Made by a program: the position numbers and the translations under genes | Part shown: piece by piece, positions 123-19,795 of the stretch | Layout: every line of letters begins with the position of its first letter | Numbering within the stretch: position 1 is the first letter of the stretch | From: Sphingomonas xinjiangensis | Lineage (GTDB): Bacteria > Pseudomonadota > Alphaproteobacteria > Sphingomonadales > Sphingomonadaceae | Direction of reading: 5' to 3' | DNA: 64,000 bases | Assembly: GCF_014199255.1 (NCBI RefSeq) | Contig: NZ_JACIJF010000007.1 | Span: 1-64,000 of the forward strand | Notes under the pieces: generated by a model | The model's input: the letters and a program-made list of their open reading frames with translations, nothing else | Databases searched by the model: none | What the model was told of the DNA's origin: nothing

Positions 123-275
123 TCCATCCGGCGCCGGCTTAAGGTCCGCTTCTCTGCTCCCGCGCCCAGAAGCAGACTGTCGGCAAGCGCCCCAGTTCTC
201 GCCGTTGAACGAGTTTCTGGCTGCACCTCAAAGCAGTCACCCCTTCCGCGATTGCAAGCGTGCTCCTCCTGATGG

Positions 276-1535
276 ATGAGAGTGCGGATGAGAGGCAGGT
301 ACTTGATCATCCCAATCGGGGCATTCCTGCTGGCGTCGGCTACGCCGACCAGGGCGCAGGTGACTGGATCGTCCGCTCCGATCTTCGATGCGCCGACTGC
401 CTGGGTCTCCTTCGAAAGGTTGCTACAGGAGCAATACGGTTATTTCGACCGACCGGGAGTTGACGGAAAGGCCATTCTCTCCGCGTTCGAGCCGCGTGCG
501 AAGGCTGCGCGTTCAGACAAAGAGTTCATCGATATCCTCCAGCTCGTCTCGCACAACTTCGCCGACCCGCACTTCATTGTAGGTCCTTTCGATAGCGACG
601 ACTGGGCGATCATTCCTACGGCGTCGGACCTGTTCGGCGTTTACGATGGCTCCCGATTCCGGATTGAACAGGTTCGAGCAGAGAGCGACGCCTTGATAAG
701 GGGAATGCGAGTTGGCATGACGGTGTTGACGATCGATGGGCAGCCGCCTCGCGCCGCCGTCGAGGAAATCACCGGGCGTTCGCTTAAGGCACTGACTTCC
801 CTTCAGGTGAATTTCGCCTTCAACATAGCTTTGGCAGGGCATCGCCGGCGATCTCGCACGGTGGAGGTGATCGACGGCAGTCGGCGAAGATCCTTTACAT
901 TAGCGCCAACTGCAGATCAGGCCAAACGCGTCCAAGATGGTCCACTTCTGAGCGTCGAGCGCCAAGGAGCGCTCGGCATCATCCGCATCAACAATTCGCT
1001 CGGTGAGCAGGCACTAGTTACGAAGTTTTCTGAGGCTTTAGCCTCCGTTCAGGACGCACCCAACCTACTGATTGATCTGCGCAATACGCCAAGCGGCGGC
1101 AATACCAGCGTAGCCCGGGGCATCTTGGGGCATTTCGTTGACCACGATCGGCCCTACCAGGTGCACGTTGTGCCATACGAGACGCGGGTGCTTGGACCAA
1201 CGCGCAAGTTTATGGAGTTCGTGGCACCCTTTGGCCTGCGCTACTCTGGCAAGGTGTATGTGGCGGGGGGGCGCTGGACCGGTAGCATGGGCGAGGGAAT
1301 GATGATCGGGTTCGACGCGATCGGGGCCACGACGCTCGGGAGCGACCTTGCCCATCTGTTAGGAGCCCTGAGCAACGAGACGATCGTAGGCTCGGCCGCC
1401 AAGGTCGACATAGGCACCGAACAGCTATTCACAGTCACGGGCCTCCCACGGGAAGCATACCACCCTCAGATCTTCATCAGACAAGCCGAGGGTGACGGGG
1501 CGCATGATCCAGTGCTCGCAGCGATCCGCCAGTGA
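276..1535 (+). CDS. Exported PDZ/peptidase S41-like protein
   Basis: The 419-residue protein has an N-terminal signal peptide ending near PTRAQ (about residue 28), so it is exported. A PDZ-like segment lies near residues 125-200 (GMRVGMTVLTIDGQPP). A tail-protease-like core follows, with LLIDLRNTPSGGN near 265-275 and TGSMGEGMMIGFDAIGATTLGS near 346-366. That arrangement matches peptidase S41 (C-terminal processing protease) folds, where the serine after the glycine-rich segment is the nucleophile; S348 is a candidate here, but the usual S-x-x-E context is not clear. Activity is therefore inferred. An alternative ATG at 288 leaves the signal peptide intact. The gene stands alone: the next gene, at 1839, is convergent. 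Confidence 0.6.
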   Translation: MRVRMRGRYLIIPIGAFLLASATPTRAQVTGSSAPIFDAPTAWVSFERLLQEQYGYFDRPGVDGKAILSAFEPRAKAARSDKEFIDILQLVSHNFADPHFIVGPFDSDDWAIIPTASDLFGVYDGSRFRIEQVRAESDALIRGMRVGMTVLTIDGQPPRAAVEEITGRSLKALTSLQVNFAFNIALAGHRRRSRTVEVIDGSRRRSFTLAPTADQAKRVQDGPLLSVERQGALGIIRINNSLGEQALVTKFSEALASVQDAPNLLIDLRNTPSGGNTSVARGILGHFVDHDRPYQVHVVPYETRVLGPTRKFMEFVAPFGLRYSGKVYVAGGRWTGSMGEGMMIGFDAIGATTLGSDLAHLLGALSNETIVGSAAKVDIGTEQLFTVTGLPREAYHPQIFIRQAEGDGAHDPVLAAIRQ

Positions 1536-1838
1536 TCACGCGCCATCATGGTGTCTGAGCCGAACGGCCGATCTATTACGAGATTCTCTGGCAGCGGTGC
1601 GGGAGCTGGCTCCGCTAGGCGATTCGAAGTTGCGGCACACCGGGCGCAGCAAGCCACCAGTTCGCAACCGCCCAAGATGCGACATTCGAGCTTTCAGCCC
1701 CGCTTCTCCAAACCCGCCGCTTATTCCGCTTCTGATTCCGGTTCGCATCGGCGAAAGCCAAGCGGCGGCCTCGGTAACATCATGCGGTAACTGCTTCTAA
1801 AGCGGCTGGCTCATCAAGGGCTAGCAGACGATGCATGA
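1536..1838. other. Gap with no gene recognised
   Basis: This lies between two convergent genes. Short open frames occur on both strands but have no start signal, recognisable motif or consistent third-position bias. I see no clear terminator hairpin. Confidence 0.5.
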
Positions 1839-2825
1839 TCAAATTGGAAACTCGACGTCTCCGACCCTCGAAAGTCCAAAACGCGTGGCGTGAGGCGAGA
1901 GCTCCGTTCCCAGGCGCTGCGCGAGCGATCCGTAGAGGTTGGGTCGGCGCCCGCACATCCATCTGCGACCGCTGCTAGTTGCCACCTCCTCTATGTCGAG
2001 ATCGGCCGTCACTATATCGTCCCCTATAGAGTTCGACTCGGAGAGTACGTCTCCGTACGGATCGAGAATCATGGCATTGCCAGTTCTCAATTCGTCCTCG
2101 TCGCGCCCGACACCATTGCTGAAGACGATGAAGAGCCCGTTGTCATGAGCTCGCGCGGGGAGCCACCGCATCAACCAGCCCCGACCGTTCGGGCCTTGGA
2201 ACTCACGCCTTAGACGTTCGGGATTCTGCCCGCGTTCTTCCCAGTATCTCAGGGGGATGTGCTTCATGCCCTTGGGACTGAGCGACTTGGTGCCGCCGGT
2301 CTGATGCGGGGCTAATAGCACCTCGGCACCGCGAAGCGCGGCTACGCGGGGGTTCTCGACAAGGTTGTTGTCCCAGCAGATGAGGATACTCATGCGCACA
2401 CCCCATGGAGTGTCGAACACGGTGTAGTCCTGACCGGAGGAGATAAGCGGATGCTCGAAGGCATGGAGCTTGCGATGGGTATGCCCCCCGCCATTTGGCA
2501 GGCAAAGGCGGTAGGCGTTGTAGAGCCTGTCGTGCGCGTCGCGCTCCAGCCAGCCGACGCCAATGCCGATCCCCAAATTTTCTGCGAGCGTCGCCACTCT
2601 CGAGACGCTTGGCCCATCCACCGGTTCGGCGAGCTCGTAGAGTCCGCCCCGATCCAGCCGGGGCAAGTGCCAGTAGCCACTGATGCACATCTCCGGCAGG
2701 CACGCAATCTGCGCTCCTGCGGCGGCGGCAGCTTCGGCAAAGTGCTCAATCCGACCTAGATTGTGGTCCTTGTCTCCAGCCCGGTGCTGAAACTGGACGG
2801 TGGCCACGCGGAAGCTTCTGCTCAT
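1839..2825 (-). CDS. Carbon-nitrogen hydrolase (nitrilase superfamily amidase)
   Basis: This 328-residue cytoplasmic hydrolase should cleave a C-N bond in an amide or carbamoyl compound. The nitrilase-superfamily triad is visible in order: Glu in CLPEMCISGYW (near residue 46), Lys in HTHRKLHAFEHP (near 115) and Cys in MSILICWDNNLVENPR (near 148). The length is normal for the family. The start at 2825 is favoured by an AAGGAG seven bases upstream. The protein would otherwise extend upstream with unconvincing residues. The gene is divergent from a LysR regulator 85 bp away, a standard arrangement for a substrate-induced catabolic enzyme. The substrate cannot be read from sequence; N-carbamoyl amino acids, polyamines and aliphatic amides are all possible in this family. 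Confidence 0.8.
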   Translation of the reverse strand: MSRSFRVATVQFQHRAGDKDHNLGRIEHFAEAAAAAGAQIACLPEMCISGYWHLPRLDRGGLYELAEPVDGPSVSRVATLAENLGIGIGVGWLERDAHDRLYNAYRLCLPNGGGHTHRKLHAFEHPLISSGQDYTVFDTPWGVRMSILICWDNNLVENPRVAALRGAEVLLAPHQTGGTKSLSPKGMKHIPLRYWEERGQNPERLRREFQGPNGRGWLMRWLPARAHDNGLFIVFSNGVGRDEDELRTGNAMILDPYGDVLSESNSIGDDIVTADLDIEEVATSSGRRWMCGRRPNLYGSLAQRLGTELSPHATRFGLSRVGDVEFPI

Positions 2826-2859
2826 TGACGTACTCCTTTGAGCCCGATGATCACGAATC

Positions 2860-2876
2860 TTGCGCAGTAACTCCAA
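2860..2876. promoter_or_regulatory. Candidate LysR operator between divergent genes
   Basis: A TTG-N11-CAA dyad lies in the 85-bp divergent gap between the hydrolase and the LysR gene. It matches the T-N11-A core of LysR-family sites and is where such a regulator would normally bind. Short dyads occur by chance, so this rests on position as much as sequence. Confidence 0.35.
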
Positions 2877-2910
2877 TGAAAGGTTGGAAGGGATGTGATA
2901 ACTGCCGGGA

Positions 2911-3819
2911 ATGGACATTGAGCGTCTCCGAGCCTTCTGCACCCTCGCGGATCATGGCAACTTCGGCCGTGCGGCGGAGCATCTGCACATCACACAGCCA
3001 GGATTGACCAAACGGATCCGCGGGTTGGAACACACGCTCGGGGGCCTGCTCTTTGATCGGGGCCGGCAGCCCGTTGTCCTGACGCAACTTGGGCGGCAGC
3101 TACTCCCAAGCGCACAACGACTGCTGCGCGAAGCAGAAGGATTCCTCCTCGAGGCTCGACGCACAGCCGCAGGAGAGACCGGAACGCTCGCAGTCGGGTT
3201 CGGGCTTTCAACAATCACCCTCGCTCCGCGCATCATCAACAGGTGCCGCTCTGTTGCTCCCAACGTCGCGGTGACGATGGACGACTTTTCGTCACGGGAG
3301 ATGATCGACCTTATCCGTCGGGATGAACTGGATTTAGGCTTCGTCAGGTTTCCCGTTTCGGACGACCTCGCCTCCTTCCCGCTTGCGACCGATCAGTTGG
3401 CCATTGCTGTTCCGGCGGACCTCCAGCTTGAGGATGACGATCGTCCGCACCAGCTGCAGAGTCGAGAGTTCATCGCGCTACGTGATGCACGAGGGCCTGG
3501 TCTTGCAGGTCAGATCCGGACCTGGTGCCACGCTAATTCCTTCCATCCACGGATAGGCCAGCAAGCAGATGATATTCAGACGGTGCTTGCACTCGTCGCG
3601 GCTGGCTTGGGGTGCGCGATCGTACCGGCGAGCTCCAGAGCTCTGCTTCCGGGAAGGCTCAAGTTGTTCCTGCTACCTGGTAGCGACGCAGTCTGGCGAG
3701 TGGGTGCCGCCTGGATGCCAGCGCGTAACACCGGCGCACTGGCGCGTGCGATTGAAATAATCCGGGCTTGGGCTGAGCCTGATACCGGAGATCTCAAGAT
3801 CCCTCTGCTCCAGGTTTAG
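2911..3819 (+). CDS. LysR-family transcriptional regulator
   Basis: This 302-residue protein has the LysR layout. The N-terminal winged helix-turn-helix covers about residues 1-60, with MDIERLRAFCTLADHGNFGRAA and ITQPGLTKRIRGLE. The periplasmic-binding-like effector domain runs from about 90 to 290, with GTLAVGF and GLGCAIVPAS. The length is typical. It is transcribed away from the carbon-nitrogen hydrolase at 1839-2825 and most likely controls that gene and itself, with an effector related to the hydrolase substrate. The regulated gene is inferred from position only. Confidence 0.85.
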   Translation: MDIERLRAFCTLADHGNFGRAAEHLHITQPGLTKRIRGLEHTLGGLLFDRGRQPVVLTQLGRQLLPSAQRLLREAEGFLLEARRTAAGETGTLAVGFGLSTITLAPRIINRCRSVAPNVAVTMDDFSSREMIDLIRRDELDLGFVRFPVSDDLASFPLATDQLAIAVPADLQLEDDDRPHQLQSREFIALRDARGPGLAGQIRTWCHANSFHPRIGQQADDIQTVLALVAAGLGCAIVPASSRALLPGRLKLFLLPGSDAVWRVGAAWMPARNTGALARAIEIIRAWAEPDTGDLKIPLLQV

Positions 3820-4230
3820 TCGCTACCTGATGCTCTCCGACTCGACCGCCTGAAATGGGCTGGAACGGTGGGCAGACTCTCTGACCTGTTGAGGTCCTAA
3901 CCCGTGTCTTGATGATGCGACGCGGTAGTGTGCGCACGGTAGCTGCAACTGAGCGAGAGGCAGGAAACAACAATCTAGAACCTTGAGCCAGCCAGCCCGC
4001 TATTCACCAGGTTGCGACGTTCCGAGCCAGCGAAGCGGACGCTGGAAGCAGTCCATCCGCTACCGCCCCAAATCTGACCGTTTAAGACTGACGCAGTGAA
4101 ACCTGTAAGCGGTCGTTCGCTCCCGCGATTACCCCATGTTCACCTCGCGACCGATAAGTGCGAACGGCGCGTTTCCGCACGTTCTGGCTCTCCTCACAGG
4201 TCGTTCATGAGAAGCTCGCGTTCGAATCCT
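3820..4230. other. Gap with no gene recognised
   Basis: About 410 bp with no convincing coding frame. Near 4031-4068 it has a short motif pair, AAGCGGACG and GTCCATCCGCTACCGCCC, that recurs in rearranged form at 5041-5070, 5291-5310 and 6617-6644. I see no RNA gene or clear terminator. Confidence 0.5.
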
Positions 4231-4923
4231 TCAGCGAGCTTCTTTTGCCGTGCGCCCAGCTGCTGCGAGAGCTAGCTTATACGTGGCTTCCCCTAAATAG
4301 GCACGAAGCGCTTCGCGGTTAAAACGTGCAGTCTGATCGGCGAAGAGGCAGCTCGCAAGTGCCGGCTTCAGCTTCTCGATCGCAGCCTCCTCGCTGGCAG
4401 ACCAAGGTCGGGAGGTGAGCATCAGATGAGAGTCTTGCGGCGCTTTTCGGGCAACGCAGTCGCCAAACGCACGGCCAGAACCGTACTCCTCCGATAGCGT
4501 CATCACGTCACCGTCAAATTCAGTGGTCACATCTATCGGTGCCGCTGATGTAAGGTCTGCGGGCGGACCAATCTTGCCGAAGTCACGGCGGTATAGAGCC
4601 GGGTACAGGGCTCCCCGGAAGGTGGACGGCTGCAGGCGCATCTCCAACTTGGAGGCTCTCCGACGAACAGCCGCATCGTTCAAGCATGTCATATCTGCCG
4701 CCTTCATGCTGGCCGGAAAGAACGGGCCACTGTTCGGGACGACGCGCAGGAAGGCGGCAACCGACTTTCGATAAGCCTTCCGCCCGACGACGCAGTCGGC
4801 GTACTCCGCGAGGTCCTTCTCGGCTTCGCGAGACGGTAGGGTATCCTGAGCAACCAGGGGGACTGACGCCACGACCGCCGTGCATATGGCCGCGTAGGCA
4901 GCAATGCGATTTAACGTCGCCAT
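4231..4923 (-). CDS. Exported hypothetical protein
   Basis: The 230-residue protein has a hydrophobic N-terminus (about residues 5-25, ending VPLVAQ) that looks like a cleavable signal peptide. The mature part has four cysteines, in ADCVVGR, DMTCLND, FGDCVARK and ASCLFAD, which could form two disulfides in the periplasm. There are no catalytic motifs and I do not recognise the family. It is flanked by gaps and other hypothetical proteins in the accessory part of the window, and no operon partner is evident. Confidence 0.6.
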   Translation of the reverse strand: MATLNRIAAYAAICTAVVASVPLVAQDTLPSREAEKDLAEYADCVVGRKAYRKSVAAFLRVVPNSGPFFPASMKAADMTCLNDAAVRRRASKLEMRLQPSTFRGALYPALYRRDFGKIGPPADLTSAAPIDVTTEFDGDVMTLSEEYGSGRAFGDCVARKAPQDSHLMLTSRPWSASEEAAIEKLKPALASCLFADQTARFNREALRAYLGEATYKLALAAAGRTAKEAR

Positions 4924-5132
4924 GTGATGTCTCCGGAGAAGTTCAACATCATGAACAGTAGAGCTTCAAGAGTTCGTCGCAACAGGGAGGGTTTGGCCGG
5001 GCCCCGTCGCGTGCCGCCACTCGGCGCGGAAAGCGGCCCGTCCGCTATCGCCCCCGGAAGCGGACGTTGGTCGGTAAGCCGGCCGGAATGTCTGGGGTTG
5101 GTAAAAGGCTGACCCGCTGAGTTGAAGGGCGG

Positions 5133-5252
5133 TCAATCCCAGTCGCGGAAAACCCATGCGACCCAGCCGATGAAGGCAAGGATCATCAGCAACCACACCA
5201 GGATAGTGGTCGCCAATCCCCATTTGGCCGCACTACGGTCTTCGTAAGGCAT
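5133..5252 (-). CDS. Small single-span membrane protein, 39 residues
   Basis: A minus-strand frame from an ATG at 5252 to a TGA at 5133 encodes 39 residues. It has a charged N-terminus (MPYEDRSAAK), one long hydrophobic segment (about residues 12-34, rich in L, I, W, V) and a charged WVFRDWD tail. That is a clean single transmembrane helix. No strong Shine-Dalgarno is visible. Only the protein pattern and the absence of any other gene in this gap support it. The function is unknown. Confidence 0.5.
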   Translation of the reverse strand: MPYEDRSAAKWGLATTILVWLLMILAFIGWVAWVFRDWD

Positions 5253-5427
5253 TCACTAGCTATAGCGGAGTAGCGACGTCTGCTAGTGGGCGCTTGCGGA
5301 CAGTCCGCTTTTGTGTGGCATTGGAGGATAGCTGCCGCTCCGAAAACAATGGTATCTCCGGAAAGTGAATGCATCTCGCTAGTCGCTGATACTGCCGGCG
5401 TGTAGCGGCGTTTGCCGGAGGTTTGTC

Positions 5428-5997
5428 ATGCCGCTATCACTGGCTCTGCTTATATTCTCGTTGTCCAGCCCGCCGCAGAAGGTTGTGGAAGATCGGTGTG
5501 CAACGATGCAAGCTCGCCTAGACACGGCGACGGCAAAGCCTCCACCTCAGACTGAAATGTCGCACCTGTACTCTGGCATTGTGATTGTTACGGCCACACA
5601 GCCGTTCTGCATGGGGTGGACTGTCGTAACTGTGTTCCGAGATCAAGACTTCCATTGGGCGCTACGCAGGACGTCAGTTGGCCACGATCTTACCATAGCT
5701 CCGGACGAACATTGGGCCTACTCGACAGCTTGCCCAGCGATCATTGATTGGCTTGAGCGGCTCGAACGCTTGCCGATCCGCTTCGGCATTGGCCCTATTC
5801 GCCAGGCTCCGAAGTCCCGAAAATCAGTTCGTGTACCGGTGTTGGACGGCACTGAATATACCGTGCGCGGCTATGGGTGGGTGACGCAGCCCAGCGGTGC
5901 TCCGGCGTCGCTCTCGTTGTCGAGCAACGATGGTGAGGTTGCCGCTTGGACGCGAGGCTTGCTGCAGGCGACGGTGCCGTGCTGGACGGCCGGCTAA
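5428..5997 (+). CDS. Hypothetical exported protein
   Basis: This is a 189-residue protein. GGAGG seven bases before the ATG supports the start. The N-terminus MPLSLALLIFSLSSPPQK looks like a short signal sequence. The body contains a few cysteines (DRCATM, PFCMGW, TACPAI, VPCWTAG) and aromatic-rich stretches but no motif I recognise. It sits alone between two minus-strand hypothetical genes. Confidence 0.55.
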   Translation: MPLSLALLIFSLSSPPQKVVEDRCATMQARLDTATAKPPPQTEMSHLYSGIVIVTATQPFCMGWTVVTVFRDQDFHWALRRTSVGHDLTIAPDEHWAYSTACPAIIDWLERLERLPIRFGIGPIRQAPKSRKSVRVPVLDGTEYTVRGYGWVTQPSGAPASLSLSSNDGEVAAWTRGLLQATVPCWTAG

Positions 5998-6106
5998 GAC
6001 GGCGAGTTGGGCGCAACGAGCGGAACGAACGGCGCATTTTGATGAGCTTGTTCGCTCGTCTGAATGTCGCAAATTGGGGCGGAAGCGGTCGCCGTTGTCG
6101 AAGCAA

Positions 6107-6562
6107 TCACGACGCCTGAAAAGTAGCCCGGCAAGCCCGATAGTCCGAGATCACCTTTGCCAGTCCCTCCGTGTCCCCGGGCCAGTAAGAACCTAAAAAG
6201 ATGCGTCTGGGGCTACTCCCGTCGACATGAACATCAAGTTGAGGCTTGTACCCGCCCAATGGCCATACGCCTGAGACACAATCCCAAGTCCAATGCTGCC
6301 GCCTCCAAAGAGTATCCAAAGTTACACCATTTCCGGTGAGGATTAGGCGGCGTGGACGGAAGATCGGAACAATAGTTAAGCAGAACCACATCATAAACAG
6401 TGGCGTTGGAATTACGATCAGCAGCCAGAAATCGTTGGGCCTGAGGTCAGGCACTCCAGGCGCAATCACCATCAAGATGCTGGGTAGCAGTAGCGGCACT
6501 GCCGTGAGAGTAGCCATGATGGCATAATGCCATTTCAGAGATTTGACTGTCACTTGCCTCAT
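6107..6562 (-). CDS. Membrane protein with PH-like C-terminal part
   Basis: A 151-residue protein with two predicted transmembrane segments (about residues 13-35 and 45-68). A soluble C-terminal part begins with RPRRLILTGNGVTLDTLW and WTWDCVSGVWPL, a pattern seen in small bacterial PH-like membrane proteins. GGGAGG upstream of the ATG at 6562 supports the start. The PH-like reading is tentative and no function can be given. It sits next to another small minus-strand membrane protein at 6641 but is not obviously cotranscribed with it. Confidence 0.55.
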   Translation of the reverse strand: MRQVTVKSLKWHYAIMATLTAVPLLLPSILMVIAPGVPDLRPNDFWLLIVIPTPLFMMWFCLTIVPIFRPRRLILTGNGVTLDTLWRRQHWTWDCVSGVWPLGGYKPQLDVHVDGSSPRRIFLGSYWPGDTEGLAKVISDYRACRATFQAS

Positions 6563-6640
6563 CTTTGCCTCCCTGAGATGATCTATACCTGAGGCGCTAG
6601 CAAGGTGTGAATTGACGTCCGGGAATGGGGCGCAAGCGGA

Positions 6641-6964
6641 CTAAATCAACATACGCCCGCCCCATGCAATGGCGATTGCATACAGAGCCAAAGCGCCTGC
6701 CACGAGTGCCGCTCGTGGCAGCCTGGTCGCCAACCAGCCGGCGTAAGGGTTAGTCCATGTGCGCCAAACGCCTAGAGCCAAGAGGAGCCACGCGCCTATC
6801 AGTGCAGCGGCGGCAACTTGAGTCCGCCAACCTCGTTCGGAGGCGCCGACCCACAGCAGGCCGGCATAGGCCAACATCGACGGAGGAAGGAGCAAGAGGA
6901 CGTGAATTGCCCAGACCGCCTTCCACCGCTGCCGCAGCGATGATCCCGAGCGTCGCCTTGTCAT
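6641..6964 (-). CDS. Small multi-span membrane protein
   Basis: The 107-residue protein starts with MTRRRSGSSLRQRWK, a positive-inside type N-terminus, and has about three hydrophobic helices (near residues 17-40, 48-68 and 84-103). The frame stays open upstream to 7276, and a Met at about 7020 is an alternative start. That extension overlaps the transposase remnant on the other strand, so the shorter form is preferred. No strong Shine-Dalgarno is seen. The family is not recognised. Confidence 0.45.
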   Translation of the reverse strand: MTRRRSGSSLRQRWKAVWAIHVLLLLPPSMLAYAGLLWVGASERGWRTQVAAAALIGAWLLLALGVWRTWTNPYAGWLATRLPRAALVAGALALYAIAIAWGGRMLI

Positions 6965-7195
6965 GGCTGAATTATCAGTGATGTCGCCGCCCAGTGCAAT
7001 TGGCCGTTTCGTGCTGCTCATGTGCCAGATGAACGATCGTCCGCTTCCAGTTGCCTCAAGCGCATAGACGAACGTCTGACATTGGGCGACAGCCGACGAG
7101 CCGCTTTTCTCGCCAGAGCGAGCCGGCGGCCTCTCTGGCAGACCGATGCTTCTGAACAGCATTGATGGTCTCAGACTTGTGGCGCCTACGACGAC

Positions 7196-7699
7196 ATGAA
7201 CGGAGACTGGATCGTACTGCCGAACGTCGAACCAGAAATATCCGTCGGGGTCAGCCTCTATCAGCACAAAGTTCATGTCGCCCGCGCAAGGCGTGCCGCG
7301 GCTGCGAGGGGCAGCTCCACGGTCACGGTGGAGGACATTCTCAACGCGAAGCTGGAGGCCGAAGCCGAGTTGAAGGCGACGTTCGACAGCAATCAGTCGG
7401 TTCGCGCGGGCAGCCTTGCGGCACGCTACTCCTGCAGCGGGGCAATCTGTGTTCCGCTATACGGAGACACGCTCTTTTCCGTGCTTCCACCGCCGGGCAC
7501 CATCGCGCCAGTCGAGGAGTACACTCCAGCACCGCAAGATCATGCATTGAGCGCGTCCTCCTCAGAGACGAGCGGACGCGTAGTGACTCAGGACGATCAA
7601 CCCATGCCCGCGCCAACAAACTCATCTGGCGAGAGCGCTCGAGGAACAAGCTGGCATGACATGGTCGATTTAGCGGAGTCGATGGATGACGATTGGTGA
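7196..7699 (+). pseudogene. tniA: TniA/TnsB-type transposase remnant, C-terminal part only
   Basis: The first 60 or so residues of this 167-residue frame match the C-terminal end of Mu/TniA/TnsB-type DDE transposases. DWIVLPNVEPE is followed by GVSLYQHKVHVARARRAAA and an acidic helix (VTVEDILNAKLEAEAE), as in the family pattern of a beta strand then S-L-x-x-H-x. The DDE catalytic core and DNA-binding domains, normally about 400-500 residues upstream, are absent. An in-frame stop lies at 7163, and the DNA further upstream encodes a membrane protein on the other strand. In intact relatives the TniA tail contacts the TniB ATPase, which here follows directly with a 14-bp overlap. So the transposase is truncated rather than relocated within this window. 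A standalone short gene is possible but less likely. Confidence 0.65.
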
Positions 7700-8876
7700 A
7701 CCACTTGCACCCGCCACAACAGGCCCGAACAATCTGTGCCGCGAACTGCCGGAAGGCATCGTCCGGCTGGAGACGACCGTACTTCAACACCCCTCTCACC
7801 TGGCGGCGAAGGCGATGATCGGCGGACTGCATAGGCGGGCACGATCGCGAGCTCTCGGCATCCATCGCGAGATTCCGTCCAGCGCTACTCTCGTGCTGGG
7901 GAATGCACGTGTGGGTAAGTCTTGGGCACTTGAAGACTATATGGGAGACTACCCCTCGCTAAGCTGGAGGGACGGCGTCCCTACCGGCGCCCTTCCGCCT
8001 GGTGTGGACCATTCCCTCCAGGACGCAGATTACCGGCCCGTCGTTACGGCGAGCGTGCCTTCGAATGTCGATCTACGTTCCTTCGTTTCAGCCATTTTGA
8101 TGGCGTTCGGGTATGTCACCCGTGATTACTGGGACAGTGCAAAAATAATCCAGATGATCGATTACTACGCAAGAGAGTTCAAAACCGACATCGTCTTTAT
8201 CGATGAGGGTCACAATCTCCTAAACAGTTGCGATGTTAACGACGCAATGGACCTTCTTGGCTTCCTCAAGGAGTTAATCAATCGGGTGGGTTGTCACTTT
8301 GTGATCGCTGGCCTGCCGATATTGGAGAAGCTGTTCACAATAGACGCACAGATACTTGGAAGAACCTCCGGTTCCATCACAATAAGACCCTATCTATGGG
8401 GTACGAAGAACGAAACCATTCTCTTCATCAAACTGCTGAAGCAGTTCGAGAGATTGATCGGCCTGCCCCGATCCTCGGGCTTCGAAACGCACGATATTGC
8501 GAGAAGAATATACATTGCTTCTTACGGTGGCCGCATCGGCTTGATCCGACGACTGCTAAGCGAGGCGGGCCAAAGGGCGATTGACGCAGGCGAGGAGTGC
8601 ATCTCGAAGGAGCGCCTTGCGGAGGCGTATCAATTGCTGAGTCTTCGCTCGTCCGACGACGATGTCGAAGGGACTCCCAACTTCCTGGATGAGCAGTCGA
8701 TGCTCGAGGACGCGGCCTCGGCAGGCGCGTCCTCAAATCCCCTGGATTGCGCCGCGACGGAGCTTCCAAGGATTTGGCAGGAGTTAATGGGCCGCGTCGA
8801 GCGAGAACGTAAGGAATTGGAGAAACTGTTGCAGCCGAGATCGCGCCGCACAAGGCTACGACCTGATTACTCTTAG
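7686..8876 (+). CDS. tniB: TniB/TnsC-like AAA+ transposition ATPase
   Basis: A 396-residue AAA+ ATPase. In Tn5053/Tn7-type elements TniB/TnsC polymerises on DNA and links the target selector TniQ to the transposase. Visible motifs are Walker A GNARVGKS (residues 72-79), Walker B IVFIDE (169-174) followed by GHNLL, and a sensor-1-like HFVIAGLP (204-211). A basic C-terminal lid (near 280-300) is followed by an extended tail of about 90 residues ending in RSRRTRLRPDYS. The N-terminal half aligns in pattern with TniB (RLET, then PSSATLVLGN). The ATG overlaps the end of the tniA remnant, and tniQ follows 37 bp later, so the module is one transcription unit. All nucleotide-binding motifs are intact although the transposase is broken. 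Confidence 0.85.
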   Translation: MTIGEPLAPATTGPNNLCRELPEGIVRLETTVLQHPSHLAAKAMIGGLHRRARSRALGIHREIPSSATLVLGNARVGKSWALEDYMGDYPSLSWRDGVPTGALPPGVDHSLQDADYRPVVTASVPSNVDLRSFVSAILMAFGYVTRDYWDSAKIIQMIDYYAREFKTDIVFIDEGHNLLNSCDVNDAMDLLGFLKELINRVGCHFVIAGLPILEKLFTIDAQILGRTSGSITIRPYLWGTKNETILFIKLLKQFERLIGLPRSSGFETHDIARRIYIASYGGRIGLIRRLLSEAGQRAIDAGEECISKERLAEAYQLLSLRSSDDDVEGTPNFLDEQSMLEDAASAGASSNPLDCAATELPRIWQELMGRVERERKELEKLLQPRSRRTRLRPDYS

Positions 8877-8913
8877 CATCGATCGTGCCATCTTCCTCGT
8901 CCGGAGGTCGCAA

Positions 8914-10728
8914 GTGTCGGGACACAAATCGGGAGCCCCCTTAGGCGATCCGCGGCTACAAGCCCTCGCGCAACTGCCCCTTCGAGTGCGACTAAAGCCA
9001 ACGGAACCGCCATTCGGCTTAGGCCTCCGGCTTGCATGTCGACTGAAGCTACAAAGCTCTTTGAGACTGGCCGCTAACCTCGGTTTGACGGCCACGGACA
9101 TGCTAAATGGCCGAGGGTCAAAGCGTCTTTGCAATGCTGCAGGGTTTAGCGAAGACAAGTGGCCAGGAGGCGAGCTTGCCCCAGACGTCAAGACGCGCAC
9201 GGTTTGGGTCAGGGGCCATGCGCTCCTGCTAGATGACTGGTGCCCGACATTTCGACGTTGGTGCCCAGCGTGCCTGCTCGATGATCGCACACGCGCGCTA
9301 CAGAACGGAGAGCCGATTGAGTCAGCAGCGTGGTGGAGGCCGGAGTGGGCGGTTCGCTCCTATCTTAACTGCTCGCACCACGCGTGCGCATTAATCGAGC
9401 GTTGCTATGGCTGCAGCGCGCCTCAGCGATGGCACGGTCCCGCAGTCGATCGCTGTCATTGCGGCGCCATCCTCGCGACGGATGAGACTATCCCGGCCTC
9501 GGTGGCAAGTTGGGAGACGTTCGTCAGCGATCGGCTTGCCGGCGACGAATCGCGAGCGCTCCTTGGCTGCGATCCGCTTCGAGAGCTTCTCCCGGCCGTT
9601 GAACGGCTTGGAACCTCGTTGCTTCAACCGTGGAGTCTGTCGCGCCCGCGAGCGGATGATGTGACGCGGGCGACTGCACGCGAAGCTGCCATGACTGCCA
9701 TCTCAAATTGGCCCGCCAGTTTCAGGCGACGATTGGACGAGGTGGCCGCAGGAACGGGGACAGACCTTCGACCACGAGGTCTCATCGGGGCATATGGGTG
9801 GATCCATTCCGAATGGGCGACATTCCCGCCGAGAACCGAACTTGACCGGCAGGTGCGGCGCGAGGTTCGTGAGCACGCTATTCAAAGCGGGTTCGTAGCG
9901 GCCGGCGAGCCTCTGTACGATTTCCGCGGTGGTGGAACGATCCACATGACAACGGCAGCCGGTAGGCTGGCGATCGGGTACAAGCGCGCGCGGCAGCTGG
10001 TTGCGGACGCTGGTGCGCTGCCGAGTGGAACGAGACGAGGTGTCGCATTTCCTTTGGACCCGGTTCAAATTGAAGAGATCGCTTCGCAGGAGAAGCGCAC
10101 GATTTGCTTTTCACTGAAGCATGAGCAAGCCGACTTAGGGGTGGGCCGGCAGCAGGCGCGTCGCCTCAGAGCAACCTTTGGCTCGACAGGACCCGGCTGG
10201 GTGCTGCGACTGATCGAAAGCTGCGCTGCGGGATGCTCTACAAGCGTCCTTGTCTCGGGAGCCCGACCTTTGCCAAATGCGTGCCAGGCGGTCGGAGTGC
10301 CTCTCGAGCTCGCGTGTGCAGCGCTCATAAAGGGCGAGATCAAAGCTTGCAGTGTGGATCCGGATCGCGCCGGGCTAGGCGGGATAGCGGTGCAGACTTC
10401 AGACCTCCGGGCGCTATCTACGCGGCCGGTTAGTATCGAGCGCGCGGCGCGCCGTCTTGGCATACATCACGAAGCGGTTCGGTGGCTTGTCCGGCACCAT
10501 CATTTGAGGCGCCACGAGGTCGTGGGGATCACACCTGGCGCGATAGACGCGTTTGCCGCGACTTTCGCGACAGCTACCGAACTGGCGCGGGATGCTCAAA
10601 TGTCCACCCGAGCTTTGTCCAGCTATCTTGAAGCGAGGGGATGCCGGCCAGCATTTGGCCCTCCCTCCTGCCGACAGGTGATCTACTGGAGAGAGGGTGC
10701 CTCGCGTGCGTTGAGCGGCGCTCAGTGA
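8914..10728 (+). CDS. tniQ: TniQ/TnsD-family target selector, first copy
   Basis: A 604-residue TniQ-type protein, closer in size to TnsD than to the short TniQ of Tn5053. It opens with LPLRVRLKPTEPP, the usual TniQ start (a short signature, then a helical domain). The zinc-binding set is C117/C120 (CPAC), C153/H156 and C164/C167 (CYGC), followed by another CHCG group. The C-terminal half contains helix-turn-helix-like segments (TTAAGRLAIGYKRARQLV, and SIERAARRLGIHHEAVRWLV), as expected for a sequence-specific DNA-binding target selector. A GTG start is supported by GGAGG six bases upstream. It is intact from end to end and translationally coupled to the second copy. Confidence 0.8.
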   Translation: MSGHKSGAPLGDPRLQALAQLPLRVRLKPTEPPFGLGLRLACRLKLQSSLRLAANLGLTATDMLNGRGSKRLCNAAGFSEDKWPGGELAPDVKTRTVWVRGHALLLDDWCPTFRRWCPACLLDDRTRALQNGEPIESAAWWRPEWAVRSYLNCSHHACALIERCYGCSAPQRWHGPAVDRCHCGAILATDETIPASVASWETFVSDRLAGDESRALLGCDPLRELLPAVERLGTSLLQPWSLSRPRADDVTRATAREAAMTAISNWPASFRRRLDEVAAGTGTDLRPRGLIGAYGWIHSEWATFPPRTELDRQVRREVREHAIQSGFVAAGEPLYDFRGGGTIHMTTAAGRLAIGYKRARQLVADAGALPSGTRRGVAFPLDPVQIEEIASQEKRTICFSLKHEQADLGVGRQQARRLRATFGSTGPGWVLRLIESCAAGCSTSVLVSGARPLPNACQAVGVPLELACAALIKGEIKACSVDPDRAGLGGIAVQTSDLRALSTRPVSIERAARRLGIHHEAVRWLVRHHHLRRHEVVGITPGAIDAFAATFATATELARDAQMSTRALSSYLEARGCRPAFGPPSCRQVIYWREGASRALSGAQ

Positions 10729-12230
10729 CGCGCGCGCGCAGCCGCGGATACCTCTCTGCGCTCCCGCTCAGGGTTCGAACGAATCTGCTGGAGCCGGGAT
10801 ACGGACTCTACAACCGCATGGCGCTGCGACACGGCTGCTCCGAAGCATACGAGTTGTCCGAGATGATTGGCGTTCGCGGATTGAACTTTGCACGGGAAGT
10901 ATCGCTTGGCCGTTGCCTCGACATCCTGTCGTCATTGAGTGGCGCTGATCGGACAAGTCTGGAAGCGAGTTCGATCTCGCTCTCGGACAAAGGCTTCCAT
11001 CTCGGCTCCATACAGCTGTCGAGTGACTCAATCTCCGGAGCGCTATTTGGACGGGTGTGCCCGCGCTGCCTCGAAGAAGACCTCGATTCGAAGGAGGGAC
11101 CGGACTTATGCCGTCCCTTTCGAAGGGGCTTCTGGGACGTGCCCCACCTTGTGATCTGTCCGATCCATAGTGTCGCTCTCACAAACTGTTGTAACTCATG
11201 CAAAGTTGGTGGCAACCGAAGGCAGATCGACCCTCGCAGATGTGGCGCCGGTCACCTGATACAGCCCGGTGCAACTGCCACCGCATCATTGTCGGGCCAG
11301 AATTATCTGTTCCGTCGACTTTCAGGTGAACCGGGTGGAGGTGGACGCTTCCTTGATGATCTGCCTGTGAACGATGCCGGACGGGTTATGCAGGCGGTCG
11401 GCCGCTCGAGGCTATTTGGCCGAGAGTGGTCTGCAGTCGAACGCTGCACCGTCGACGACCTCGTGGCCGCAAGCAGCGCCGGCTTCGAAACGCTGGCAAA
11501 CTGGCCCAACGAACTTTGGCACCTGCTGGACGAACTCCGGGAGCGAAATAGCGGGGGGTCCAAGGGCGGCCCTGAGCGCGTCTACGGAAGTTTGACCAGG
11601 TGGTTGCAACACGGTGGCGGTTCCCAGTTTCCCGCTCTCGCATCTGAACTCGCGAACCACTACTCAGCTACAGGAGCAAAGACCCGGCACCCGCTCATAA
11701 GCGACGTTCAGCAATCGGCGGTCACAGTTTGGTCGCTCGCACTTGAAACCGGCTTTGCGCGCGAACGTATAGAACAGGTCGCTGCTGGTCTGGGCGCAAC
11801 CGTGATACGTGCGCACGGACCACCTCGGGTCTCAGTCGAAGAGGCGCAGAGAGTCCGCGCTCTGCTTTCTCGGGCCGTGAAAGCACCTGCAGCTGCTGCC
11901 CGGCTTGGGCTCACTCTCGACACCTTCAAGCAGCTTCGGCGCGAGAAGATCCTACTTCCTATATCCGGGCTGGTCGTGCCGCTTTACGACGTCGAGGTTC
12001 TCGACCAACTGATCATAGAATGTTCCCGGGGTGCCCCGTCTACCGTGGAACCGCCCCCGAATACCCTTCCGCTGGTTAGAGCGAGTCGAGCCACCAATCG
12101 CCCTCTTCATCGGGTGGTAACTGCAATTTTGGGAGGCGATCTGCGCCCAGCGGCTCGACTGCAAGGTTCGGTAGGATTTGGCTCGATCTTAATAGACGTG
12201 ACGGCCGTGTTCGCAACGCCCTACCGGTGA
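10725..12230 (+). CDS. tniQ: TniQ/TnsD-family target selector, second copy
   Basis: A 501-residue TniQ-type protein. It begins at a GTG sharing GTGA with the stop codon of the first tniQ, and this choice places the family opening LPLRVRTNLLEPGYGLY at about residue 14. Zinc ligands are C112/C115 (CPRC), CPIH near 145-148, and CC-x2-C near 156-160, the standard pattern of the family. The C-terminal region has helix-turn-helix-like segments (WSLALETGFARERIEQVAAG, APAAAARLGLTLDTFKQLRR). It differs strongly in sequence from the first copy, so this is not a recent duplication. In Tn7-like elements two selectors normally serve two target pathways; here that is inferred from family precedent. Confidence 0.8.
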   Translation: MTRARSRGYLSALPLRVRTNLLEPGYGLYNRMALRHGCSEAYELSEMIGVRGLNFAREVSLGRCLDILSSLSGADRTSLEASSISLSDKGFHLGSIQLSSDSISGALFGRVCPRCLEEDLDSKEGPDLCRPFRRGFWDVPHLVICPIHSVALTNCCNSCKVGGNRRQIDPRRCGAGHLIQPGATATASLSGQNYLFRRLSGEPGGGGRFLDDLPVNDAGRVMQAVGRSRLFGREWSAVERCTVDDLVAASSAGFETLANWPNELWHLLDELRERNSGGSKGGPERVYGSLTRWLQHGGGSQFPALASELANHYSATGAKTRHPLISDVQQSAVTVWSLALETGFARERIEQVAAGLGATVIRAHGPPRVSVEEAQRVRALLSRAVKAPAAAARLGLTLDTFKQLRREKILLPISGLVVPLYDVEVLDQLIIECSRGAPSTVEPPPNTLPLVRASRATNRPLHRVVTAILGGDLRPAARLQGSVGFGSILIDVTAVFATPYR

Positions 12231-12526
12231 GGGTCATGGTTTGAACTAAAGTTATTAGCTCCTTTCGAAGGATTTTGCCAAATTTATCGTTTCTCTTTTT
12301 AGCTTTATAAGCCGCAGACCGGACCTAACCCATTGGAAAGGCGTGATCAGATTTTCAGGATTATCGTTTCCTGCACAACTGTGGGAGTAGGCCCGGCCGG
12401 ACCGTATCCGGGTCTACTTTCACGCTCTTGGCGCTCAGGCCGAAAAGATCAGAAGTGGAGGGACAAACCGCGCCCGCTTTGTCCGTGAATGGCTTCTGCC
12501 ACCCCTCATTTCGCTAAGGCGCTCTC
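12231..12526. other. Likely right boundary of the tni element; no gene
   Basis: This 296-bp gap separates the tniQ genes from the conserved chromosomal block. Its left half (12241-12310) is clearly more AT-rich than anything around it. A 10-bp sequence, TTATCGTTTC, occurs twice in the same orientation at 12284-12293 and 12361-12370, 77 bp apart. Arrays of short direct repeats are how TniA/TnsB transposases mark element ends, so this could be the old right end. I could not find a matching left end or a clear target duplication. Confidence 0.35.
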
Positions 12527-13492
12527 ATGCAACCCATCCAAATCCTGATGACCGCGCCGTTGCTGCCCATCGTGGTCGCGCAACTGGAATCCGCCTTCAC
12601 GCTGCACAAGTTGTGGGAGCAGCCCGATCCGGACGCCTTCCTGAAGGCTGTCGGTGCCCGCATTCGTGGCGTCGCTACCAGCACCTATCACGGGCGGATC
12701 GACGATGCTTTCCTGGCGCGATTGCCAGCCTTGGAGATCATCGCGAGTTTCGGCGTAGGCTATGACAATGTCGACGTGGCCGCGGCCGCCGCGCGAGAGG
12801 TGGTGGTCACCAACACGCCTGGCGTGCTGGACGAGGAAGTCGCGGACCTGACGGTTGCGCTGCTGCTCTCGACGCTGCGCCAAATTCCCCAGGCCGAGCG
12901 TTTCCTGCGCGATGGAAAGTGGCGGGAGGGTGCGTTCCCCTTGTCGCCAACCCTGCGCGGGCGTCGGGTCGGGATCGTCGGGTTGGGCAATATCGGGAAG
13001 GCAGTGGCGCGCCGCTTGCAGGGCTTCGATGTGGCGATCGCCTATCATGGGCGGACCAGGCAGGACGTACCGTTCGACTATCATCCCACGGTGACGGGTT
13101 TAGCCGACGCATCCGACGTGCTGGTGGTGATCGTTCCGGGCGGCGCGGAAACCCGGCACTTGATCGACCGCGAGGTGCTGGCGGCGCTGGGGTCGGACGG
13201 GGTGCTGATCAACGTCGCACGCGGCAGCGTAGTCGATGAGGCCGCCCTGATTGAAGCGCTGCAATCGGACATGATCCTGAGCGCAGGACTGGATGTCTAT
13301 GCCGACGAGCCGCGCGTGCCGCAGGCGCTACTCGATCTGCCGAACTTGGTGCTGCTGCCCCATATCGGATCGGGATCGGTTCAGACGCGCAATGCCATGG
13401 GGCAGTTGCTGTCCGACAACTTGGTGCAGTGGTTCCGGGATGGCAAACCGGTGACGAGCGTGCCGGAGACAGCGCATCTGATTGCCGGCTAG
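12527..13492 (+). CDS. NAD(P)-dependent 2-hydroxyacid dehydrogenase
   Basis: A 321-residue D-isomer-specific 2-hydroxyacid dehydrogenase, most like glyoxylate/hydroxypyruvate reductases. It would reversibly reduce 2-oxoacids in the cytoplasm. The nucleotide-binding loop is GLGNIGKAVARRL (about residues 151-163). The catalytic residues are Arg in NVARGSVVDE (near 230), Glu in ADEPRVP (near 264) and His in LLPHIGSGS (near 283). The length is typical. It is the first conserved chromosomal gene after the tni element and converges on the sensor kinase, whose stop is 65 bp away. The exact substrate cannot be told from sequence. Confidence 0.85.
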   Translation: MQPIQILMTAPLLPIVVAQLESAFTLHKLWEQPDPDAFLKAVGARIRGVATSTYHGRIDDAFLARLPALEIIASFGVGYDNVDVAAAAAREVVVTNTPGVLDEEVADLTVALLLSTLRQIPQAERFLRDGKWREGAFPLSPTLRGRRVGIVGLGNIGKAVARRLQGFDVAIAYHGRTRQDVPFDYHPTVTGLADASDVLVVIVPGGAETRHLIDREVLAALGSDGVLINVARGSVVDEAALIEALQSDMILSAGLDVYADEPRVPQALLDLPNLVLLPHIGSGSVQTRNAMGQLLSDNLVQWFRDGKPVTSVPETAHLIAG

Positions 13493-16191: not shown

Positions 16192-18726
16192 CTACAGATC
16201 GGGTAGAGACTGGTCGGCCTCGCCCCAGCCGGTGAGCGCGCGTGAGGCGGCACGGTCGAGCAGTTCAGCGGCGTCCCGAATGGTGTAGCGCTTCGCACTC
16301 TCCAAATCGCGCAACTCGCTCCAGGTTACCGGAGCGGCGACCGGCGCATCTTCCCGCGCCCGGGCGACATAAGGGAGCACTGCAGTCGCGCCACGCTGGT
16401 TGCGCAGATAGTCGATGAAGATTTTACCCTTGCGGGTGACTTTCTTGAGGTTGGCGGTGTACCGGTCGGGCTCGGCCTGGGCGAGCGCTCGGGCGAAGCG
16501 TTCGGCAAAGGAGCGGACTGCGGGCCAATCGGCCTGAGGCACCAGCGGGACGACGACGTGAACACCCTTGCCGCCGGAGAGCAGCGGCCAGCTGGTGAGG
16601 CCGATATCGGCAAGGTGGCCCTTCAGTTCCTCAGCAGCCTTCTTGACCTGCGTGAAGTCGAGCCCCTCGTCGGGATCAAGATCGAACACGAGGCGATCAG
16701 GCCGCTCGATGTCGGCTACCGGCGCCCCCCAGCCGTGGAACTCGATCGTGCCCATCTGCACGCAAGCCATCATACCGTCGACGTCGTCGACATAGAGATA
16801 GGGCTGCGTGCTGCCGTCCTTTTCACGAACTTGGACATGGTGGACGTCGTCGCCAAAGCTGCCGGCGTCATGCTTCTGGAAGAAGCAATGTTTCGCCCGG
16901 CCCTGGGGACAGCGGACGAGGCTGATCGGGCGGTTGCCGAGCCAGCGCAGCGCAGCGGGGGCTATGGCCTGGTAGTAGTCCGCGAGCTCGCCCTTGGTGA
17001 GGCCGGACTCGGGGTAGATCACGCGTTCGCGGCTGCTGATCTTGATGTGCGTTTCGGGCGCGGCTGGCAGCGCCGTGGGCGTTTCCGGCACCACGTCCTT
17101 GGCCTGTTTGTCTTCGCGCAGGCCAAGGAAGCTGCCGTGGCGCACAACATTTTCGGCGGTGAACTCGGTAAAGGCGACTTCGGCGACAAGCTGCGGCTTG
17201 AGCCAATGCGCGCCGCGTGCTTCGGCCTTGGGAACGGCGGTTGCTGGCTCGTCCGCCTTGATCCGGTCGAAGCGCTCGCGCAAGTCGTGAAGCGTTTGCG
17301 TGCTGAAGCCCGTGCCGACCTTGCCGGCGTACCGCAGGCCGTCGGTCCCATTGAGGCCGAGCAGCAGCGAACGGAAGCCGCGGCCTTTGGCGGTCGAGGG
17401 CGTCCAGCCGATGATCACGAATTCCTGGCGCTGGATGCACTTCACCTTGAGCCAGGACTTGGTGCGGGTGCCGCGATAAGGCGCGTCGGCACGCTTGGAA
17501 ACGATGCCCTCATATCCTTGGTCGCACATCGTCTTGAAGAGCTTCTCGCCGTTGCCGATGATGTGCTCGGAGAATTGGATGCGTGGATCTGCCCCCTCGA
17601 CGACGGCCCGCAGCCGCTCCTTGCGTGCGAGTTGCGGAAGCGCGGTGACGTCGCCGCCCCCGGCGAGCAAATCGAAGGCGAACAGTGTCAGGTCGTGGCC
17701 CCCGGCGGAGATCGCTTCCTGAAGCGTCGAAAAGTCAGGCTTGCCGTTCTTGAATGCGACAATCTCACCATCGAGCAGCGTGCCAGGTGGGAGCGTGGCG
17801 GCGGCTTCGGCAATGCCGGGGAACTTCTCGGTCCAATCTAGCCCGGAGCGGGTGTAAATTTTAACAGCGTTGGTGCCGGTGGCCACCAGGGCGCGGTAGC
17901 CGTCATATTTCACCTCGTGGAGCCAAGCGGTGCCGGTGGGAACGGTGTCGACCAGGGTGGCGAGTTGAGGAGCGCTAAAGGGGGGGGCTTTCGCCTTCTT
18001 AGAACCTCCCCCGGAGGGGGTGGGAGACCGTCCGGAGGACCGTGGATGGAAATCCGCCATAGGTGATTCGCTTGGGGCGATTACCCCTCCACCACCCGCG
18101 GCGCCGGCGCGTGCCCTCCCCCTCTGAGGGAGGTTCTTTTTGAGGACTTTCTTCGCCTCGGCGATTTCCTGCATGGTGCGGCCGGTGTGGACGCTGGTCA
18201 GACCGGTTTCAACAAGGAGGTCGGTGGCCCCGGCGAAGCCATCGTTTATTTTGCGGAGCAGCCAGTTTTCGTTCTTTTCCTTCGCGCGAGGCTTGAGGCG
18301 GATGAGGAGCCATTCGCCCTTCATCCGCTCTCCATCGAGGCGGAAATGCAGGTGGCCCTGTTCCAGGTCTTTAGCCGACTTGCCCTCGATCGGCTCCCAG
18401 AAGCCATCGTCCCATAGCATGACCGTGCCGCCACCATATTCGCCCTTGGGGATCGTGCCCTCGAAATCGGCATAGGACAGCGGATGATCCTCGGTACGGA
18501 CGGCCAGGCGCTTTTCATTGGGATCGAGGCTAGGGCCGCGAGTGACGGCCCAGCTTTTCAGGACGCCGTCGACTTCGAGGCGGAAGTCCCAATGCAGGCG
18601 CGTAGCGTCGTGCTTCTGGACGATGAAGCGGTTGCCACCGGTGGGTGCGACCGTGCCAGCGGGTTCGGCGGTCTTCGCGAAGTCGCGCTTGGCGTTGTAT
18701 TTGGCGAGGGGGTCGAGCTTGGCCAT
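16192..18726 (-). CDS. ligD: Multidomain DNA ligase D
   Basis: An 844-residue LigD that completes bacterial non-homologous end joining. Order: an N-terminal 3'-phosphoesterase domain (residues 1-180; HWDFRLE with H45/D47, and HPLSY), an ATP-dependent ligase domain with the nucleotidyl lysine K273 in EVKYDGYR, and a C-terminal primase-polymerase domain with FDLDP and FIDYLRNQRGATAV. The linker between the first two domains (about 198-242) is encoded by a repeat element described separately. The start lies 5 bp after the ku stop, so ku-ligD is one operon. The PE-Lig-Pol order is common in alphaproteobacteria, in contrast to Pol-PE-Lig in mycobacteria. Confidence 0.95.
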   Translation of the reverse strand: MAKLDPLAKYNAKRDFAKTAEPAGTVAPTGGNRFIVQKHDATRLHWDFRLEVDGVLKSWAVTRGPSLDPNEKRLAVRTEDHPLSYADFEGTIPKGEYGGGTVMLWDDGFWEPIEGKSAKDLEQGHLHFRLDGERMKGEWLLIRLKPRAKEKNENWLLRKINDGFAGATDLLVETGLTSVHTGRTMQEIAEAKKVLKKNLPQRGRARAGAAGGGGVIAPSESPMADFHPRSSGRSPTPSGGGSKKAKAPPFSAPQLATLVDTVPTGTAWLHEVKYDGYRALVATGTNAVKIYTRSGLDWTEKFPGIAEAAATLPPGTLLDGEIVAFKNGKPDFSTLQEAISAGGHDLTLFAFDLLAGGGDVTALPQLARKERLRAVVEGADPRIQFSEHIIGNGEKLFKTMCDQGYEGIVSKRADAPYRGTRTKSWLKVKCIQRQEFVIIGWTPSTAKGRGFRSLLLGLNGTDGLRYAGKVGTGFSTQTLHDLRERFDRIKADEPATAVPKAEARGAHWLKPQLVAEVAFTEFTAENVVRHGSFLGLREDKQAKDVVPETPTALPAAPETHIKISSRERVIYPESGLTKGELADYYQAIAPAALRWLGNRPISLVRCPQGRAKHCFFQKHDAGSFGDDVHHVQVREKDGSTQPYLYVDDVDGMMACVQMGTIEFHGWGAPVADIERPDRLVFDLDPDEGLDFTQVKKAAEELKGHLADIGLTSWPLLSGGKGVHVVVPLVPQADWPAVRSFAERFARALAQAEPDRYTANLKKVTRKGKIFIDYLRNQRGATAVLPYVARAREDAPVAAPVTWSELRDLESAKRYTIRDAAELLDRAASRALTGWGEADQSLPDL
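18001..18137. repeat. Palindrome-ended repeat element inside ligD
   Basis: A 137-bp segment begins AGAACCTCCC (18001-18010) and ends GGGAGGTTCT (18128-18137), perfect 10-bp inverted ends. It resembles intergenic elements of sphingomonads, with its runs of CCTCCCCC/GGAGGGGG. Here it is read in frame as the ligD linker, giving a Gly/Arg/Pro/Ser-rich stretch (residues about 198-242, from NLPQRGRARAGAA to SPTPSGGGS) that is unlike the flanking domains. Confidence 0.6.
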
Positions 18727-18731
18727 CCAAG

Positions 18732-19661: not shown

Positions 19662-19795
19662 GATCGCTCTCCATCGTTGCGAGGCCGATTCAAAGCGCGA
19701 GGAAGGGAGTCGTTCCCACTGCTGATCCTCGCCCTGACGGAGGAGGATTGACGACGCCCCTCCCCGTTCCAAAGAGGATTGTGTATGGGCGTGCC

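Follow-up and report, generated by a model that had tools for sequence, protein, structure and literature searches.

Background

Tn7-like transposons with tandem dual tniQ/tnsD genes are already known, with 1,048 such loci in a published survey (PMC10293859), and type I-C CRISPR-associated transposons (CASTs) have also been described (PMC12669027). Elements of the pTB1 type, found in sphingomonads, have the order tnsA-tniA-tniB-tniQ (loci L005, L019-L023, L057, L058, L060, L064 and L106). The DNA analysed here, referred to as the window, comprises the first 64 kb of contig C7 in the Sphingomonas xinjiangensis genome (G000; 4.47 Mb, 64 contigs). As judged from the sequence, positions 7187-12378 of the window are what is left of the right-hand side of a Tn7-like element with the composition TnsA-TniA-TniB-TniQ-TniQ, and its tni genes are very probably a dead fragment left by a deletion or rearrangement, most likely a recent one, and thus a product of ordinary decay.

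The remnant is a defective member of a known Tn7-like kind. It shares with the dual tniQ/tnsD transposons (PMC10293859) the order tniA-tniB-tniQ-tniQ, an AAA+ TniB and two TniQ-domain proteins, but differs in lacking TnsA and the DDE part of TniA and in having one recognisable end. Among the features of an autonomous Tn7-like element, the window thus holds the TniB/TnsC AAA+ ATPase and two TniQ/TnsD target selectors, whereas the DDE transposase and the TnsA-type endonuclease usual in this branch are absent, and one end of the expected pair with repeated transposase sites was found. The pTB1-type elements provide the best TniB matches (together with the Azospirillum locus L006) and the best TniQ2 matches, have a TniA tail 34-36% identical to that of the window and carry the motif TTATCGWTTC behind their last gene. 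They differ in having a single TniQ, with a primase-helicase in place of the second, in a protein identity of 30-37% to the window, and in being mostly complete, although L019 and L023 carry frameshifts.

Organization of the remnant

The tniA gene is represented by its 3' part (7187-7699, + strand), which lies in a frame open from 7166 to 7699 with an ATG at 7196. Relative to the 705-residue reference TniA from Sphingobium pTB1, residues ~566-705 are kept, as the first-pass annotation had recognised in describing a C-terminal tail only. The tail aligned to residues 565/566-682 of pTB1 TniA and its close relatives with 34-36% identity (E 1e-11 to 8e-13) and to the TniA tails of the related loci with 34-38% identity (best E 7e-14; profile E 1e-17), the latter alignment including the conserved extreme C-terminus. 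Since homology starts only at about residue 565/566, the three DDE residues (near positions 302, 385 and 421 of pTB1 TniA) are all missing from the window, and the Mu-transpos_C region (residues 516-573 of pTB1 TniA, where Pfam matches weakly, slightly below its cut-off) is mostly absent.

Besides the tail, no TniA or TnsA piece was found in positions 1-13000 of the window at E ≤ 1e-3 (the next best row had an E-value of 0.003, the remainder being weaker and scattered), and the possibility that part of tniA or tnsA lies upstream in a different frame was therefore rejected. A TniA/TnsA profile search of the window and own-genome stretches (E ≤ 0.1) returned only the tail and a second tni module on contig C10, and a TnsA profile gave no match in the window at E ≤ 1. 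A candidate TniA fragment on contig C37 (E 0.07 in the whole-genome search; E 0.001 and 37% identity over 50 residues when searched alone) was also rejected, as it contains a stop and gave no profile match at E ≤ 1.

The tail abuts a dispersed repeat copy (7083-7187), whose right edge is the deletion junction. The copy matches positions 6733-6837 of contig C45 at 99% over 105 nucleotides (nt), with a single mismatch at 7146, and this match ends at 7187, at most 3 nt from the first TniA-aligned base; five more partial copies occur in the genome at 75-83% identity. The DNA left of the junction looks recently rearranged, because the segment 5294-6081 (788 bp) has a 99% copy at 10804-11591 of contig C17. 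This segment contains an open reading frame (ORF) at 5428-5997 of no assigned family. The first 95 nt of contig C7 are identical to the end of C45, and similar copies of ~100 nt are present in genome G024.

Behind the tail, tniB (7686-8876, + strand) encodes an AAA+ ATPase of 396 residues (Pfam TniB, E 3e-13) that carries the motifs GNARVGKS (Walker A, residue 72) and VFIDEGH (Walker B, residue 170), in agreement with the earlier description of its length and Walker motifs. TniB is 33-37% identical to the TniB proteins of the pTB1-type and Azospirillum elements and was placed as sister to them in a tree, where its branch length of 1.43 falls within the 0.91 to 1.46 of the nearest deep lineages and is uninformative. 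TniQ1 (8914-10728, + strand; 604 residues; Pfam TniQ, E 1e-7) is 34-35% identical to TniQ1 of genome G622 and has all eight zinc-ligand positions. TniQ2 (10641-12230, + strand; 529 residues as listed; Pfam TniQ, E 2e-8), whose frame overlaps that of TniQ1 by 88 nt as listed, is 30% identical to TniQ of the pTB1-type elements and has seven of the eight. Its last ligand column holds Ala, where 23 of the 25 aligned sequences, including TniQ1 of the window, have Cys and one has His; a nearby His in TniQ2 might compensate. Loss of a ligand is by itself no proof of death, because the C10 module of this genome has a TniQ that deviates at three ligand columns. Scans of viral contigs with the TniB alignment and with TniQ2 found no relative.

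The tniQ-side transposon end appears to be retained. In the pTB1-type elements, repeats TTATCGATTC come after the last gene, and the final one stands at the terminus as TTATCGATTCTCCACAGA. The window carries this 10-mer with one change, TTATCGTTTC, at 12284 and 12361, i.e., 54 and 131 nt after tniQ2. The first of these is the inner repeat (12284-12293, + strand) and the second opens the terminal repeat TTATCGTTTCCTGCACAA (12361-12378, + strand), which lines up with the pTB1-type termini. These are the only two exact TTATCGWTTC motifs in the 64 kb, where 0.07 would be expected and none of 100 shuffles reached two; it is this count, with the match to the end sites of relatives, that points to a retained end. 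From their position and from the relatives, the TTATCG repeats are presumed to be transposase (TniA) sites. A search of the genome for the partner end with up to three mismatches yielded one three-mismatch match only; a control pattern also gave matches, and a diverged end could escape this search. A 5-bp target duplication was readable by eye in five of the seven related loci viewed with both flanks (L005, L022, L058, L064 and L067) and was not readable in L020 and L063; repeat finding at the ends of the relatives gave nothing useful.

The first-pass annotation, which had placed a tni module at 7184-12230, was therefore right in part. The module is present and both TniQ frames are open, but it reaches the transposon end at ~12378, the TniQ frames overlap, and the full set of zinc ligands ascribed to both proteins holds for TniQ1 only. 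The fourth correction concerns the neighbour of the tail, said to be a gene beginning on the opposite strand. Such an ORF (6641-7276, - strand; 211 residues if started at 7276) does overlap the tail by ~90 nt, but the feature that abuts it is the repeat; the ORF is a neighbour outside the tni module and gave no Pfam or NCBIfam match.

Related loci

In the TniB searches, all of which included the own genome, matches were obtained in 3 of 100 relatives (E ≤ 1e-10), 3 of 385 genomes of the class (E ≤ 1e-15), 5 of 397 of the family and 8 of 295 of the genus (both E ≤ 1e-20); TniQ2 gave matches in 9 of the 295 genus genomes. These prevalences are lower bounds, as the TniB of G290 was absent from the TniB matches among the genus genomes and came in via TniQ2. 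A contig scan with TniB alone detected no locus, and one with the TniB alignment detected 13. Among plasmids, 117 records were matched, all below 60% identity, two of them covering at least 80% of the query; two records (H1 and H2) were examined. The closest matches were 30-39% identical and none above 39% was found, a distance at which synonymous sites would be saturated.

A tally of 27 loci was compiled. It takes in the genome's own C10 module, omits L059, L061, L062, L063 and L067 as second views of contigs already counted, and counts the longer views L099, L103, L104, L105 and L106 together with L072, L071, L073, L004 and L070. The loci are not independent (L025/L104 and L024/L026 are close copies). 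TniA was regarded as full-length when one open frame of 631-845 residues matched the TniA profile, a criterion of length and profile match and not of catalytic residues. By this measure TniA is full-length in 22 of the 27 loci; two share a frameshift, one (L066) is cut by the contig start and two are front-deleted. The frameshift, found in L019 and L023 of Sphingomonas sp. Ant H11 (G192), is a 1-nt loss near codon 545 that separates the catalytic part from the tail; a programmed frameshift at this place was rejected, as it would rest on two copies in one genome that share a single loss.

The first-pass annotation had proposed a search for tniA-less tniB-tniQ-tniQ loci in related genomes; none of the 27 loci shares the arrangement of the window, and the two front deletions are unrelated. 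Seven other loci have two tniQ genes (L024, L025, L026, L099, L100, L103 and L104), six of them with full-length TniA. The order tnsA-tniA-tniB-tniQ-tniQ with full-length tniA occurs in L024, L025, L026, L100 and L104. L103 has a split TniQ1, and no TnsA was detected there.

The seventh, in G622 (L099), has the TniQ1 closest to that of the window (34-35%), a second TniQ behind it and a lost tniA front. It differs in an IS701 transposase fusion, in the absence of Walker A and in that the end motif was not found behind TniQ2; a frame of 907 residues (1865-4588) joins the IS701 transposase to a TniA part starting at residue 323 and a TniB part starting at residue 170, and the two tniQ genes follow. 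The Azospirillum loci (L006 and L065) include the best single match to the TniA tail (L065, 38%) and, in the A. argentinense Az39 plasmid (L006), another case of a tail only in front of TniB and TniQ. They differ in carrying type I-C cas genes and a short TniQ, and in Az39 the tail is fused to Cas8c: the frame at 6064-7986 joins Cas8c (Csd1, profile residues 1-413 of 559) to the TniA tail, apparently through an internal deletion within a I-C CAST. In Az39, cas5 lies upstream of the fusion and tniB with the short tniQ downstream, and no CRISPR-like repeats were found at the locus; A. lipoferum L065 has the order cas7-tnsA-tniA-tniB-short tniQ.

Among the pTB1-type elements, the gene of L005 labelled 'DEAD/DEAH helicase' (17987-20434) encodes an AEP-TOTE primase domain (Pfam, E 4e-96) together with the helicase, and copies 87-97% identical (BLAST) follow tniQ in L019-L023. 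Judged by its ends, the pTB1 element is ~8.5 kb long and has no other cargo.

The first-pass annotation had also raised the question of a full-length tniA elsewhere in this genome, and one is present in the complete tnsA-tniA-tniB-tniQ module on C10 (L054, 7371-13460), which is flanked by two tyrosine recombinase genes and encodes TnsA (285 residues), TniA (730), TniB (377) and TniQ (675, without three conserved zinc-ligand positions) in open frames. This TniA is 24-25% identical to those of pTB1 and A. lipoferum, and the tail of the window gave no match to it at E ≤ 0.01; a full-length partner of the same family within the genome was rejected on these grounds. A search of the frames with the rve profile returned five above the cut-off, C10 TniA not being among them, and is thus an insensitive test.

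Origin of the remnant

As suggested by the related loci, the intact ancestor would have had the order [tnsA-side end]-tnsA-tniA-tniB-tniQ1-tniQ2-[tniQ-side end]. A deletion or rearrangement would have taken tnsA, the end on its side and the first ~565 tniA codons, and would have joined the remaining tail to the dispersed repeat at the junction observed at 7187. Because it has no DDE part, no TnsA and one recognisable end, the fragment should move neither by itself nor in trans, and TniB and the TniQ pair would still be open owing to the recency of the loss. A very recent deletion, one of two readings offered by the first-pass annotation, fits the sharp junction at a 99% repeat, the single end kept without a partner, and the one long TniA frame in 22 of the 27 loci. 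The loss of the tniA front through unrelated partners in Az39 (Cas8c) and G622 (IS701 transposase) and the missing ligand position of TniQ2 argue for the same interpretation. In a model of stop gain in the three genes (4587 nt; substitutions only, transitions weighted twice), 157 new stops were expected per substitution per site, and neutral divergences of 0.44% and 1.9% left a 50% and a 5% chance of no stop, respectively. Open frames therefore require only that the loss be recent, as this chance stays above 5% until 1.9% divergence.

Several observations weigh against decay by recent loss. Three long frames and a tail without a stop are also what is expected under selection. In the larger alignment sets, the window has not lost more family-invariant residues than certain functional relatives, the changed positions being 9 of 39 in TniB (others 0 to 10, with 10 of 40 in each of L025 and L024), 6 of 51 in TniQ1 (the lowest of five, others 8 to 14) and 9 of 49 in TniQ2 (others 0 to 14); in a set of four TniB sequences the window was highest, with 49 of 117 changed against 32 of 100 for the next. 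The end motif stands behind the last gene in pTB1-type relatives only and is absent from that place in the seven other two-TniQ loci and the Azospirillum loci (L099, L103 and L065 have one-mismatch matches, but elsewhere in the locus), so that the end assignment depends on the pTB1-type relatives. Neither an empty site nor a full-length sister copy was found, and for this reason the event and its age are inferred; with regard to dating by an empty site, the dehydrogenase and kinase genes to the right of the element lie on different contigs in the four genomes with both genes among the matches listed (G020, G029, G032 and G034). Neither decay nor selection is proven, and parsimony favours decay.

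The other reading of the first-pass annotation was a retained module that works without transposition. In such a case selection would keep the tail, TniB and TniQ as a means of marking or blocking a target site, for example by conferring immunity on the chromosome against incoming relatives or by poisoning their transpososome via the TniB-binding tail. All frames are open, the Walker motifs and TniQ1 ligands are kept, the larger sets show no excess of changed invariant residues, and in Az39 and G622 the downstream frames are likewise still open after loss of the tniA front. The tail also keeps the conserved extreme C-terminus, the region that contacts TnsC in TnsB of ShCAST, where a C-terminal TnsB hook makes this contact (PMC9876797). 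The claim of the first-pass annotation that contact with TniB would be made by the tail agrees, by analogy, with this hook of a type V-K CAST, and because the extreme C-terminus is kept the tail could dock on TniB, by comparison across distant families. If the genes are expressed, TniQ would, by the same analogy, bind DNA, TniB load on TniQ-bound DNA and the tail dock on TniB. As stated in the same paper (PMC9876797), the C-terminal domain of ShCAST TnsB alone does not stimulate the TnsC ATPase and domain II-beta plus the C-terminal domain does, while for prototypic Tn7 C-terminal fragments of TnsB suffice; the tail, which lacks most of a II-beta-like domain, may or may not stimulate ATP turnover by TniB.

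Such co-option nevertheless appears very improbable, and received no positive support from the related loci: its arrangement is shared by none of the 27, and of the seven other two-TniQ loci, the only one without full-length TniA is the IS701-TniA-TniB chimera without a P-loop. The front-deleted loci preserve no common set, since G622 kept its TniQ frames and lost the TniB P-loop and the TniQ of Az39 is short. Furthermore, a scan of 6560-7700 found no sigma-70-like promoter, TniQ2 lacks one ligand, and open frames are expected after recent loss. That the tail, TniB and the TniQ pair act as a resident blocker, occupying the attachment site and sequestering or immunising against incoming relatives, is likewise very unlikely. 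If it were so, Tn7-like transposons would face a naturally arising dominant-negative guard, and the losses of the tnsA-tniA front seen repeatedly in this branch (window, Az39 and G622) would be a path by which anti-transposon guards become domesticated, as opposed to plain decay. Among the titles and abstract openings of the literature, none concerned TniQ/TniB in Sphingomonas or domesticated TnsC/TniQ.

A false join at 7187 through the 105-nt repeat, with a full tniA in the real genome, would explain why the junction lies exactly at the edge of a repeat with another copy on C45 in an assembly split into 64 contigs. It is very unlikely: the whole-genome search with pTB1 TniA returned only the tail, the TniA of C10 and, on C37, a weak match over 55 residues, and no missing half. 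The repeat also has exact runs of 63 and 41 nt, less than the exact 95-nt overlap between the ends of C7 and C45, which hints at a longer assembly k-mer, k being deduced from that overlap. Least credible of all is a module working in trans with the full-length TniA of C10, whose four frames are all open, but which has its own TniB and TniQ, a TniB in another branch of the tree and a TniA that the tail did not match at E ≤ 0.01, while the window element has one recognisable end.

Implications

As a product of decay by recent loss, the remnant itself matters little, although it shows that the front half of a Tn7-like element can be lost while its TniB and TniQ genes stay open. Such leftover genes will be annotated as transposition proteins, and open tniB and tniQ frames alone are no demonstration of co-option. 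For the sphingomonad branch of Tn7-like elements, the locus supplies a likely end motif.

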